Of a stretch of DNA of 21,439 nt, positions 1 to 6,420 are shown piece after piece. The translations under genes and the position numbers were made by a program. Origin of the DNA: a virus; IMG/VR virus record IMGVR_UViG_3300030107_001018, positions 1-21,439 of that record; one strand, 5' to 3'. How positions within the stretch are numbered: the first letter of the stretch is position 1; every line of letters starts with the position of its first letter. The notes below the pieces were generated by a model. The model did not search any database. It saw nothing but the letters and a program-made list of their open reading frames with translations, and was not told where the DNA came from.

Positions 1-600
1 TGGGTAATGGAATGGGCCGAAATTGACGGGGTAACTTCTAAAAAACACGCTGGTCATATTAAAGCCTTTTTATCTCGCTCTACCGATTTTTTAAGAGTTC
101 CCTACGGTAAAGCTGTTGAAGAATGGCCTCGCCGTGGAATTATTGTTGGAAGCTCAAATAAAGAATCTGGTCTGTTATTTGATGACACTGGAAACCGCCG
201 CTTTCATGTTATCCCTTGCACTGCGACATCCATTGATCTTGATTCACTTCAATTAGAGAGGGATTCTATTTGGTGCGCAGCAGTTCAATCTTGGAAAAAT
301 AAAGAGTCACATTTCCTAACCTTTGAACAGGAAAATCAGATCGAAAAAGAGAATTTAGGTTACATGGTTGATTCACCTTGGTTAACCGTCATTAATCAAT
401 GGTTGAATAATCCTGTTAATCAAAGCACCGATATAACCATCGAAAAACTACTTACCGAGGCCATCGAAAAACCAGTGGAACGCCAAACAAAATCCGACAC
501 CATGACCGTCTCATCTATTCTCAAAAGTCTGAAGTATGAGAGAAAGAAAAAAAGAGTCGAGGGAACGCCTAAGTGGGTTTGGAACTTGCAAAAGTCGTAA
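1..600 (+). CDS. VapE/D5-like phage replication ATPase (primase-helicase), C-terminal part
   Basis: The open frame runs off the left edge (WV precede the first Met), so only the last 199 codons are present. The visible part matches the second half of the VapE/PF05272 P-loop ATPase: MEWAEIDG (the acidic Walker B-like strand), then KAFLSRSTDFLRVPYGK, then RRGIIVGSSN (sensor-1-like, ending in Asn) and LFDDTGNRRFHVI with the arginine pair expected of this family. The Walker A loop and any N-terminal primase domain lie upstream of the window. The last ~50 residues look like a winged-helix tail with a basic end (YERKKKRVEGTPKW). In phages such proteins act as DNA-replication helicases or primase-helicases. 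The gene lies just upstream of an iteron-like region, which fits a replication role. Family is fairly sure; the exact role is inferred. Confidence 0.82.
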   Translation, partial: WVMEWAEIDGVTSKKHAGHIKAFLSRSTDFLRVPYGKAVEEWPRRGIIVGSSNKESGLLFDDTGNRRFHVIPCTATSIDLDSLQLERDSIWCAAVQSWKNKESHFLTFEQENQIEKENLGYMVDSPWLTVINQWLNNPVNQSTDITIEKLLTEAIEKPVERQTKSDTMTVSSILKSLKYERKKKRVEGTPKWVWNLQKS

Positions 601-651
601 GTTCCCTCCTGTTCCCTCCTTTGTTCCTACGGGTGGGAACGCTCAAAAACC

Positions 652-680
652 TTGATACACCTCTCTTCTCTTTATATGTT
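652..680 (+). promoter_or_regulatory. Possible sigma70-type promoter before the terminase genes
   Basis: TTGATA (652-657; five of six matches to the -35 consensus) is followed after 17 bases by TATGTT (675-680; four of six to the -10 consensus). The -10 box overlaps the GTTCCC copy at 678-683, so a protein binding these repeats could control it. It would transcribe the terminase and head genes. This is a by-eye prediction only. Confidence 0.3.
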
Positions 681-695
681 CCCTATGTTCCTATG

Positions 696-742
696 TTTTT
701 ATATATAAATATAGAGATAGGTATATATGGGGTATATATATA
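696..742. other. AT-rich core, candidate DNA-unwinding element of a replication origin
   Basis: This 47-base stretch has no C and only eight G on the + strand (about 83% A+T) and is built of TATATA-like runs. It lies between the paired GTTCC words at 678-691 and the inverted pair at 779-791, inside the only sizeable non-coding stretch of the window (601-815), just after a replication ATPase gene. That arrangement resembles iteron-type origins, but function is inferred. Confidence 0.35.
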
Positions 743-815
743 GCTCAGGTAAGTTTGCAAGGAAGGTGGTACACAGTAGGAACGTGGGAACACTATCTAA
801 TCTCATTTCTGTCTC

Positions 816-2745: not shown

Positions 2746-4176
2746 GTGGCTTTCAGTGCATACAGTGGATATAGAACTTATAGAGGTATTGCGGAAGCAA
2801 AAGTTAATAAGGTATCTGATCCTAACCAGCAATGGTTGAATCAAGAGCCGCATTGGATTCTGCCTGAAACGATTGTTCAAGGGACTTACGAGATTAGATC
2901 TAAACACCGAAAATATTTACCGCAAGAGGAACGTGAATCAGATTTAAGTTATGACGCTCGGTTAGCAAGAAGCGTTTTATCTCCTTACTTCATACGAATT
3001 GAAAGGATGTTGGCGGGGATGTTAACTCGTAAACCTGTTCAGTTGAATGACACTGCTGACGTTATACGGGAAGCCTTGTTCGATGTGGATTTGGGCGGAA
3101 ATGACATCAGCATTTTCTGTTACGAATTAACGCGCAAGCTCTTACGCTACGGACATATTGGCTGTCTTGTTGATAGTCCATCTTTAGAGACAGGCGAAGG
3201 CCGCCCATATTGGAGCATTTACACACCAAGGGACATTATTGGTTGGAGAACAGAAAAGAAAGATGGAAAAGATGAATTAACACAGCTTCGATTAGCTGAA
3301 CAAGTGTTAGTTGAAGATGGTTTGTATGGAGTGAAAGAGGTTCAACAGATCAGAGTATTGACGCCAGGTAATTTTGAAATTCATCGTAAGAATAAAGAGA
3401 AAAGCGATTGGGTTATTCAGGAAGAGGGAACAACATCACTTGATTACATTCCTTTTTCTGTTGCTTATGCAAACAAGGTTGGCTATATGGAATCAAGACC
3501 ACCGATGAGCGATATAGCTGAATTAAATTTGAAACATTATCAAATACAGAGCGATTACGACAATATCTTGCATATCTCGGCTGTTCCGATGCTATCTATT
3601 TTTGGGATGCCGCCAAGTGATAGTGAAATTAGTGCTGGACCAGGAGAAGCTTTTGCAATGCCAGCCGAAGCAAGAATTGAATATATAGAACCAGGCGGTA
3701 GTAGTTTTTCAGCACAACAAGAACGCCTTAAAGAGATAGCATCTCAGATCAATGAATTGGGTTTAGCGGCAATATTAGGCCAAAAACTCAGTGCTGAAAC
3801 GGCTACTTCTAAGGCCATCGACCGTTCTCAATCAGATGCCACGATGCTTTATATCGCGCAGCAGGTTCAGGATTTAATTGATAATAGTTTGCGTTTTCAT
3901 GCTGATTATTTAGGTGTTGAGGCGGGTAGTTCTTATGTCAATCGCGACTTCTTAGCATCTCGTTTAGATCCTCAAGAAATTAATAGCGTTCTTCAACTTT
4001 ATACAGCAAATACAATCAGCCAAGAAAGCTTGCTAAAGATGTTGGCCGAGGGCAATGTGTTACCTGATGAGTTTGATGTTGAAGAAGAAGTTGAAGCAAC
4101 ACAAGTAGCAGGATTAATTGAAATGGAACCACCTGAGAAGAAGGAAAAAGAAGAAACAGTACAAGTTGAAGAGTGA
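2746..4176 (+). CDS. Portal protein, DUF4055-like
   Basis: 476 residues from a GTG start with AGAGGA (2731-2736) upstream. Residues ~57-98 hold the conserved block typical of DUF4055 portal-like proteins (YDARLARSVLSPYFIRIE then AGMLTRKPV), followed by RYGHIGCLVD (134-143) and SIYTPRDIIGWR (157-168). The C-terminus is strongly acidic (EEEVEATQ... EPPEKKEKEE), as in many portals whose end is disordered. The portal forms the dodecameric ring at one capsid vertex through which DNA passes and to which terminase and connector proteins bind. Its position between the large terminase and a MuF-type protein is canonical. Confidence 0.9.
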   Translation: MAFSAYSGYRTYRGIAEAKVNKVSDPNQQWLNQEPHWILPETIVQGTYEIRSKHRKYLPQEERESDLSYDARLARSVLSPYFIRIERMLAGMLTRKPVQLNDTADVIREALFDVDLGGNDISIFCYELTRKLLRYGHIGCLVDSPSLETGEGRPYWSIYTPRDIIGWRTEKKDGKDELTQLRLAEQVLVEDGLYGVKEVQQIRVLTPGNFEIHRKNKEKSDWVIQEEGTTSLDYIPFSVAYANKVGYMESRPPMSDIAELNLKHYQIQSDYDNILHISAVPMLSIFGMPPSDSEISAGPGEAFAMPAEARIEYIEPGGSSFSAQQERLKEIASQINELGLAAILGQKLSAETATSKAIDRSQSDATMLYIAQQVQDLIDNSLRFHADYLGVEAGSSYVNRDFLASRLDPQEINSVLQLYTANTISQESLLKMLAEGNVLPDEFDVEEEVEATQVAGLIEMEPPEKKEKEETVQVEE

Positions 4177-4179
4177 TAA

Positions 4180-6420
4180 ATGGCCCCACAAATAAAGAAA
4201 GAAGGCACACCAGCGATTCTTTATCGGAACGCTATTGACTTAAATCGCTTTAGTAATGGGGTTCAAAATAGACTTGTAAAAGCTAATAAAAAAGTCCTTG
4301 TTCGTGCAATTGAGCAGTTAGCAAAGATTGATGATTCAGAGAAGCCGTCATATAAAGCCGCAAGATTAAGAGCATTATTGAAACAGACAAAAGAATCACT
4401 AGGCACTTGGAGAAAAGAAAGTGTTGCGGTGATGATTAAGGAGTTAGAAGGAATTGCAGATGTTCAAGCTGGTTTTGTAGAAAGTCAAATAGAAAAGGCA
4501 TTACCTAGCGGAGTATTGAGAAGCGAATTAAATCCAGCAGGTTATAGCGTTCAAACTGTTGCAGTAAGTCCAGATTTTGCGAAGGCTGTGGTCACAAAAG
4601 ATCCTAGTGTTGTCACGTTAAGAGCAACAGGCCCATTTGATTTAACAGCAGCGCAAGGAGCGCAACTAACACTGCCTAATGGTGACACTGTTGAAAAAGC
4701 ATTTAGAGGAATTGCATCTAGAGAGCTAAGTAACTTTAAACAAACGGTTAGAACAGGTCTTTTATCTGGTGAACCTACAGAAGATATTGTTCGTCAGTTA
4801 ATGGGTAATTTGGAGTTTGGTCAAAGAGCTGGAACACCGTTACAAGCGGCGTTATCTGGTGACGCTGGCTTTAAAATGGCTAGGCATCAAATCAGGACAG
4901 TTGTTAGAACAAGTGTTAATCAGGTTTCTAATGCAGCAAGTAAGCAAGTTTACAAAGCAAATGAAGATGTAACAGAGAAGTACCGTTATGTTGCGACGTT
5001 AGATAGTAGAACCTCGGCTTTATGTGCATCGCTTGATGGACAAGAGTTTGAATATGACAAAGGGCCAGAACCACCACAGCATTTTAATTGCAGGTCAACA
5101 ACTGTTGCTGTTATTGATTGGGATGGATTAAGGAAGAAATATCCAAAATTAAAATTTGATGATCCAGCCGAAGGAAAAAGAGCCGCAGCAGGAGGGATGG
5201 TTCCTGCTGACACTACTTATGGGAAATGGTTGCATGGACAAAGGGCTAGAACCAAGTCAGGAAAATTATCTCAATTCACACCTGGACCAAGACAGATTGA
5301 AGCATTAGGAAAAGAAAAGGCAAAATATTTTAATCGTTTGGCTAATAAGTATGGAGCAGATGAAGCAATTAAAAAGTTTGTAAGAACGGATGGAACAGAG
5401 ATCAGCTTGGCGCAACTAAAGAAGCGTTATCCAAAACTGACAAGCATTAAGAAGAAAACAGTGGCAAAGGTCAAAGCAGTAAAAGTTGCAGCTTTTGATC
5501 AAGATTCGATAGCTTCCGTCTCAATGGGATCTCCTGCTGTTGATGAACATCTTCAGAAACTTATTTCTTACAGAGAGAAAGGAATAAAAGGAATGGTTGA
5601 ATCTAGTTGGAATGAATTAGAGGCATTAGGAGGAGAAACAGCCGTGAACGCTAAGAAAACTAGAGAGTTTATGGTTAAACATAAGATTTTTAATAATTTC
5701 GCAATGAAAGGGGAGAAATGGAAATCTTCAAATGCTTCTTGGTATTACAACAAACAACTAAAAGAAAGCATGAAAGCGGCTGTAAAAGATTTAGAAAAAT
5801 ATAGTGATAACAATAGGACGTATGTAGGGAAACACAAAAGATGGTTCTTGCGTAATGTTGACAAGTTGGAAGATAGCTCGACACGAAATCAAGTTTTACA
5901 AAGGTTTTTAGATCCTCCTTCTGGTAGAGCTAATGGATATACAAATATGCAGTCCAGTATTATCAACACTCAGTTAACACCTTTATCAGCAAGAATTACT
6001 GCCTCTAACGCAAAAGAGATGAAGAAGATTGCTGCTGATGTTTTAACAAAAACAGTAGAAATTATCGAGAAGAAAACAGAAGTAGCAAGACAACTTGCTT
6101 TTCTTGATCCTATAGATTTAATTGATTGGACAACAGGTTGGAAGATAGGACAAGAGCAGAAGGGCAGCAGTTGGTTTATTACAATGATCCATGAAACAGG
6201 GCATCAAGTTCATGCAAAAGCATCTGGAGGTGTTGCGTTAGGCAGTAAATGGAAAGGAAAGGGAGGCATTACAAAAGTTACAGGCTATGCTCATAAGAAC
6301 CCTAGAGAACAATTTGCAGAAGGTTTTGTGCAGTACGTTTTAAATCCCGAAGGTTTGAAAAAATCAGCTCCAAGGGTTTATTCTTGGATTGAAGAGGCAT
6401 TAGAGGAGGCTCTAAAATGA
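4180..6420 (+). CDS. MuF-like head protein fused to a C-terminal zinc-metallopeptidase-like domain
   Basis: 746 residues, much longer than ordinary MuF/SPP1 gp7 proteins. The N-terminal half (about 1-320) is a MuF/SPP1 gp7-type head morphogenesis domain, ending in the diagnostic block RTSVNQVSNAASKQVY (243-258), TLDSRTSALCASLDG (273-287) and PPQHFNCRSTTVAVI (298-312). A Lys-rich linker lies near 424-437 and an unrecognised region at ~440-575. The C-terminal domain has an HExxH motif, HETGH (671-675), followed by NPREQFAEGF (707-716), where Glu714 could be the third zinc ligand of a gluzincin-type peptidase. MuF proteins enter the head at the portal and may be ejected with DNA; MuF-toxin fusions with C-terminal effector domains are known in temperate phages. 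Here the peptidase could be an injected effector or a head-maturation protease. The domain call comes from motif reading. Confidence 0.85.
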   Translation: MAPQIKKEGTPAILYRNAIDLNRFSNGVQNRLVKANKKVLVRAIEQLAKIDDSEKPSYKAARLRALLKQTKESLGTWRKESVAVMIKELEGIADVQAGFVESQIEKALPSGVLRSELNPAGYSVQTVAVSPDFAKAVVTKDPSVVTLRATGPFDLTAAQGAQLTLPNGDTVEKAFRGIASRELSNFKQTVRTGLLSGEPTEDIVRQLMGNLEFGQRAGTPLQAALSGDAGFKMARHQIRTVVRTSVNQVSNAASKQVYKANEDVTEKYRYVATLDSRTSALCASLDGQEFEYDKGPEPPQHFNCRSTTVAVIDWDGLRKKYPKLKFDDPAEGKRAAAGGMVPADTTYGKWLHGQRARTKSGKLSQFTPGPRQIEALGKEKAKYFNRLANKYGADEAIKKFVRTDGTEISLAQLKKRYPKLTSIKKKTVAKVKAVKVAAFDQDSIASVSMGSPAVDEHLQKLISYREKGIKGMVESSWNELEALGGETAVNAKKTREFMVKHKIFNNFAMKGEKWKSSNASWYYNKQLKESMKAAVKDLEKYSDNNRTYVGKHKRWFLRNVDKLEDSSTRNQVLQRFLDPPSGRANGYTNMQSSIINTQLTPLSARITASNAKEMKKIAADVLTKTVEIIEKKTEVARQLAFLDPIDLIDWTTGWKIGQEQKGSSWFITMIHETGHQVHAKASGGVALGSKWKGKGGITKVTGYAHKNPREQFAEGFVQYVLNPEGLKKSAPRVYSWIEEALEEALK
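6402..6409 (+). promoter_or_regulatory. Perfect Shine-Dalgarno for the 63-aa overlapping gene
   Basis: AGAGGAGG ends 7 bases before the ATG at 6417, inside the last codons of the MuF-metallopeptidase gene. Most starts in this window have weak or no such site, so this one is unusually strong and supports the small downstream frame as a translated gene. Confidence 0.75.

Follow-up and report, generated by a model that had tools for sequence, protein, structure and literature searches.

The replication origins of uncultured phages are rarely located, and the DNA described here raises the question of whether one can be recognised in the gap that follows a primase-helicase gene. The window, by which we mean the whole analysed stretch of 21,439 nucleotides from an IMG/VR virus record of 22134 b (IMGVR_UViG_3300030107_001018), opens with the 3' part of a vapE/D5-type gene and continues into a cluster of GTTCC/GGAAC words on both sides of a C-free stretch. 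A sequence-only reading had proposed that this arrangement is an origin of replication. Of the explanations weighed below that reading is the best supported: the repeats would be iterons around a core suited to melting, the layout recurs 3' of vapE, and the repeated word co-varies with a predicted DNA-binding domain of the helicase. The features on which the argument turns are as follows.

1..600, plus strand: 3' part of the vapE/D5-type (PriRep-like) primase-helicase gene (PF05272, PHROG), whose start lies upstream of the window
376..597, plus strand: predicted C-terminal winged helix, putative iteron-binding domain (AF2 model, VIA-align)
541..543, plus strand: codon of Arg181, at model position 348, which co-varies with the variable base of the iterons (column scan, pre-set test)
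562..691: left iteron arm, with GTTCC on the plus strand at 601, 611, 623, 678 and 687 and on the minus strand at 562, 581 and 636 (word count)
692..743, plus strand: candidate unwinding element, a C-free core of 52 nt with 81% A+T (longest C-free run)
779..791, minus strand: right iteron arm, two words (779 and 787) inverted relative to the inner left pair
816-1034: small ORF
1043-1372: TerS-like ORF, so labelled from its place and look; it matches one family only, a PHROG of unknown function

The array and its surroundings

Ten GTTCC/GGAAC words lie within 230 nt (562-791), exactly as first counted, and they include, as had been described, a tandem pair (GTTCCCTCCT, 601-620) and pairs in mirrored orientation (678-691 and 779-791); two of the ten, at 562 and 581, fall within the 3' end of vapE. 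The clustering stands out against shuffled sequence: dinucleotide shuffles of the window (n=1000) gave at most six words per 230 nt and none of 2000 local shuffles reached ten. Outside 556-800 the rest of the window holds 46 words (2.17/kb), with three or fewer in any 230 nt. Overall the word is somewhat over-represented (56 against 29.4 expected), yet dispersed; all of these counts cover the window only. When an unsupervised test accepts any 8-mer with one mismatch the array is only modestly unusual, with six copies (p=0.01) and as good a score in 14 of 95 control windows.

The C-free A+T-rich core between the arms is present, although its bounds (692-743) make it slightly longer than the 696-742 originally given. 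We defined the core as the longest C-free or G-free run, having dropped an earlier automatic core score that, for the window clade, chose the left arm; runs of at least this length occur in 2 of 95 control windows of the window. In a DNA fold of the single strand from 556 to 800 the inner arms (678..791) can form a long stem and leave the core in its loop (z -2.83, 0/200 shuffles as good), a result that inverted iterons alone would produce. Between the core and the right arm, at about 752-759, lies an AAGTYT element, found again at this place within the window clade as well as in many clades whose module is inverted. Three TCTCA words (ATCTCAT..GTCTCAT..GTCTCA, 799-827) stand right before the start of the ORF at 816, and GTCTCA-like words occupy the matching place in relatives; they may represent a signal of their own, for regulation or for packaging.

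The GC skew that had been put forward as a check did not bear the origin out: the window shows no clear switch, and there is no sign change at the array beyond the near-zero skew of the first kilobase. In Synechococcus phage S-LBS1, a relative discussed below, the cumulative skew has its minimum at 34063, near the array, and its maximum at 5029; the curve is asymmetrical and the record linear. GC skew is uninformative on the origin.

Beyond the TerS-like ORF the window encodes a terminase large subunit (TerL) and a portal. TerL shares 52% identity with those of Prochlorococcus and Synechococcus siphoviruses, and the VapE part 49.7% with that of S-LBS1, identities which suggest a marine cyanophage-like siphovirus. 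A blastn search of positions 1-1400 against phage records returned no matches, and no Rfam families were found in the window. Further along, at 4180-6420, a Mu F-like head protein has a C-terminal stretch that weakly resembles ATLF zinc metalloproteases, below the Pfam cut-off, with an HETGH motif inside.

A predicted winged helix at the C-terminus of the helicase

The VapE part matches Pfam PF05272 (E 1.1e-33) and a PHROG for DNA helicase (3.6e-34), and full-length relatives have 676-690 amino acids. An AlphaFold2 model of one relative, L005 (39 rows, mean pLDDT 84), places a helix-helix-helix-strand-strand domain at residues 293-366 (block pLDDT about 79-92), and the window coordinates of the winged helix come from counting back along the C-terminus shared with L005. 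The best structural match of the model is 7pds, PriRep1 with dsDNA (Foldseek 3e-18; VIA-align Z 26.2 over 292 residues, span 60..366), at an rmsd of 9.3 A that is probably due to shifts between domains; the next matches, NrS-1 and the SaPI5 primase-helicase, reach a Z of about 13. The window helicase itself matches 7pds by profile at E 6.4e-34. That entry carries the names 'Similar to D. nodosus vapE' and PriRep1, and we take it to be a staphylococcal-island protein.

The layout is conserved and the words are clade-specific

Eighty viral loci share the VapE C-terminus at 80-99% identity. Within the window clade (26 sequences) no variation is seen in 43 of 50 word columns; the exceptions are apparent changes at 601/611, which result from a one-base alignment shift, and one member that differs at 581; the core is invariant in 38 of 51 columns and the spacers in 62 of 139. 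In the sister clade, at about 80-84% identity, the layout is kept with a left arm that is mostly GTTCT and lies partly inside an extended vapE 3' end. Conservation of the array among relatives with the same helicase, the lack of which would have counted against the sequence-only reading, is therefore found for the layout, while the word itself is kept in the closest clade only.

The same layout recurs directly 3' of vapE, with clade-specific words, in viral relatives to about 50% identity. In S-LBS1 and its relatives (80 loci) arrays lie at the equivalent place and are made of CCTAACC, CCAACC, CCCTACC, GTCCTATC, TTCCTACC and similar words; three loci of this type (L121, L138 and L147), whose match lies at or near the end of the available DNA, were left out. 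The collection of 161 loci, of which 154 were usable and seven had less than 400 nt after the vapE stop, fell into 40 groups at 85% identity. Word enrichment (any 8-mer, one mismatch) reached p<=0.01 in 27 of the 40 clusters and was not significant in 13, and 19 of 40 exceeded all of their own control windows; an exact 6-mer test was too strict, with 19 of 40 clusters at p<=0.01. At 35 of 43 loci the longest C-free or G-free run surpassed that of every control window, 26 of the 1011 controls overall being equal or better; among clusters collected later, 24 of 24 beat every control (0/420).

Words facing the core point in opposite directions to its left and to its right. Read in the orientation of the C-free strand, the nearest site to the left of the core is pyrimidine-rich in 22 of 24 loci and the nearest to the right purine-rich in 23 of 23. 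This test covered 24 loci, after exclusion of the 13 clusters without a significant word and of L111, L122 and L155, where the core was not picked automatically; the word was set by hand to GTTCC for the window, L025 and L041. The module as a whole stands in either orientation relative to vapE: among 37 clusters scored (L111, L122 and L155 by hand, L063 unscored) 21 are arranged as in the window and 16 are inverted. At least three changes of orientation are needed on the best tree, of which well-supported branches force only one.

Freedom of orientation bears on the proposal that the region is an operator or promoter controlling the downstream genes, a proposal that suits an intergenic, A+T-rich stretch with repeated words and an ORF just beyond it. 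Promoter-like sites occur there at chance level and no terminator was found, the genes downstream differ among relatives, and the words, as described below, co-vary with the winged helix of the helicase; we regard this explanation as exceedingly improbable.

Further from the window the layout thins out. By eye, an array is present in 4 of 7 distant VapE phages and none is there in the other 3, and among relatives in bacterial genomes, with L255 and L256 left out, the core is unusual in only 24 of 78. Iteron arrays were seen by eye after vapE in the alphaproteobacterial genome contigs L191, L197, L244 and L247, and Rhodobacterales loci L213 and L225, with a VapE of another subfamily, are without them. 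Just past the vapE stop in five loci (L082 at about 3605-3660, L088, L091, L106 and L109) two inverted iterons are followed by a T run and look like an intrinsic terminator built of iterons. Inspection by eye shows a stretch of about 127 nt, running through the iterons, to be repeated at the end of the S-LBS1 record (L082, 3629-3755 and 3882-4008), possibly as an assembly artefact.

The module goes with vapE and not with the terminase genes

Repeats of the cosB type near terS are well known, and in the window the terminase genes start within 0.8 kb of the array, so that the words might be a packaging site (pac/cos) bound by the small terminase subunit encoded just downstream. The module nevertheless follows vapE in clusters without a terminase homologue in the flank examined, a TerS-like homologue being present in 8 of 40 and TerL in 12 of 40. 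Conversely, the cyanophages MED4-184, KBS-S-2A and S-H1, with a TerL about 52% identical to that of the window, lack a GTTCC cluster (three or fewer per 250 nt), and the 13 kb examined contain no annotated vapE. These two observations indicate that the module goes with vapE, and the co-variation of words and helicase also speaks against packaging. Since the repeats do not travel with the terminase genes we rejected membership of the pac/cos class, and we give a packaging role very little credence indeed.

One helicase residue tracks one iteron base

The iteron word and the winged helix change together, one residue tracking one base. Comparison of the winged-helix sequences with the words suggested that residue 348 (Arg181 in the window) predicts N, the variable base of [CT]C[CT]N-AC. 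In the first set most words had a pyrimidine there in 19 of 20 cases with Arg, and most had a purine in 15 of the 16 decided cases with Lys, Gln or another residue (one tie, one with too few). The rule was fixed in writing before new loci were fetched and was then tested on 24 new clusters, where it agreed in 7 of 9 with Arg and 12 of 14 with other residues, with one tie (19 of 23 decided, p 0.0066). Over all clusters it agrees in 53 of 59 and is broken in 6; among the controls, vapE coding sequence gave 16 of 44 and downstream sequence 20 of 32. Natural variants include an L129 type, Arg with CCCTACC, and an L109 type, Gln with CCCAACC.

On the tree the residue needs 12 changes and the base 13. 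Seven independent pairs on well-supported branches gave a mean of 5.9 concordant, none contrary and 1.1 without a difference (median p 0.031); S-2L (L083) and L168, whose C-termini differ, were kept out of the tree and code tests. A scan of 355 columns, which takes in the discovery loci, put the column of residue 348 at the top on two measures, agreement (0.898, with the runner-up at 0.763) and mutual information; on the latter the first ten columns are all within 295-352, inside the winged helix or beside it. This co-variation supports the proposed binding of the repeats by the VapE C-terminal domain.

It also bears on the alternative of an origin at this place whose initiator would be some protein other than VapE, from the host or not, DnaA being one example. 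Triplets in the cores of the first set resembled a DnaA-trio, for which the consensus in the available text of PMC10201434 served as comparison: lags in multiples of three numbered 130 against 65.1 expected in 36 cores, and 67 against 38.4 in 24 dissimilar ones (L063, L111, L122, L155, L170, L172 and L174 left out). The signal was absent from 24 new clusters (56 against 50.3 expected, p 0.24; runs of three or more in 1 of 24 against 1.1 expected), a failure to replicate that is not fully clean because in about five of them, by eye, the automatic pick of the longest run resembles an iteron arm. We make no claim for a DnaA-trio-like motif. Perfect trinucleotide runs do occur within single cores, of the different triplets TGA, TAG and TTG, in L125 near +111, L392 near +90 and L196 near +100, numbered from the vapE stop. 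With the word changing along with the C-terminal domain of VapE, recognition by another initiator appears most unlikely.

Discussion

Positions 601-791, together with the 3' end of vapE, very probably form the replication origin of this cyanophage-like virus; its VapE/PriRep-type helicase would bind there and read the GTTCCY words with its C-terminal winged helix. The window has a VapE/D5-type gene immediately upstream, a predicted winged helix and repeats on both sides of a candidate unwinding region, and the proposed origin is a further example of the known SaPI-type plan. We found no description of the origin of VapE-type cyanophages in the open-licence literature, which is weak evidence of absence.

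According to the available text of PMC7581432, citing Ubeda 2007, the C-terminal domain of SaPI Rep reads iterons directly downstream of its own gene, and the window likewise has iterons directly downstream of the gene for a VapE-family initiator helicase. It differs in being from a marine cyanophage-type tailed phage and in having other words and a C-free core. As regards SaPI, the comparison of orientation covers only the relatives of the window, across which the module occurs both ways. SCCmec Cch2 and its putative origin are similar, in that short iterons (AAGTG) of the downstream intergenic region are bound by the isolated C-terminal domain; this system has a separate primase-polymerase and three direct repeats, and the available text mentions no core flanked by inverted arms (PMC7581432). 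S-LBS1 is closer to the window: the stop codon of its primase-helicase gene is followed by CCTAACC words, a C-free purine-rich core and inverted GGTTGGG words. Its word is different, and its tracking residue is Lys instead of Arg.

For pRN1 (orf904) and the proposed BIP-1 phage origin, replication depends on a noncoding region, with a stem-loop, on the 3' side of a gene for a primase-SF3 helicase-winged-helix protein (PMC4234260, in the text available). The stem-loop of the pRN1-type origin is about 100 nt long and no iterons are reported in that text, whereas the stem in the window would consist of iterons; since the inner arms can pair with the core in the loop, a pRN1-like stem-loop and inverted iterons are maybe two views of one thing. 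The winged helix of P4 alpha protein binds origin repeats before unwinding and priming (available text of PMC4234260); its primase is of the Toprim type and the likeness is drawn from the initiator, not from the layout of the origin.

By analogy with SaPI Rep, Cch2, P4 alpha and pRN1, the VapE/PriRep-type SF3 primase-helicase would dock on the GTTCCY words through its winged helix, and the inverted arms would place initiator complexes on either side of the 52-nt core, which would then melt, allowing the helicase to load and its primase to start. As a speculation, the strand asymmetry of the core may show the primase which of the two strands comes first. For the SCCmec primase, synthesis is reported to begin mostly with a purine, set opposite a cytosine of the template (PMC7581432, in the text available), and if this rule were valid here the C-free strand would be unprimable in the core and its complement primable, which is speculation.

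A broader proposal, to which we commit ourselves only tentatively and which is rather doubtful as a whole, is that these viruses share a self-contained, flippable origin cassette in which words and winged helix co-evolve, Arg at one wing position going with a pyrimidine and Lys or Gln with a purine, and in which the C-free strand sets the strand that is primed first. If the cassette rule is true, the origin words of uncultured phages would be predictable from the helicase sequence. Our findings point to a large family of VapE-encoding viruses from metagenomes that keeps its origin in one predictable place, and in which the sequence of the helicase predicts part of the word that it recognises. 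Should binding be confirmed, these viruses would offer a natural panel of matched pairs of initiator and origin with which to learn how SF3 primase-helicases choose, melt and prime their origins.
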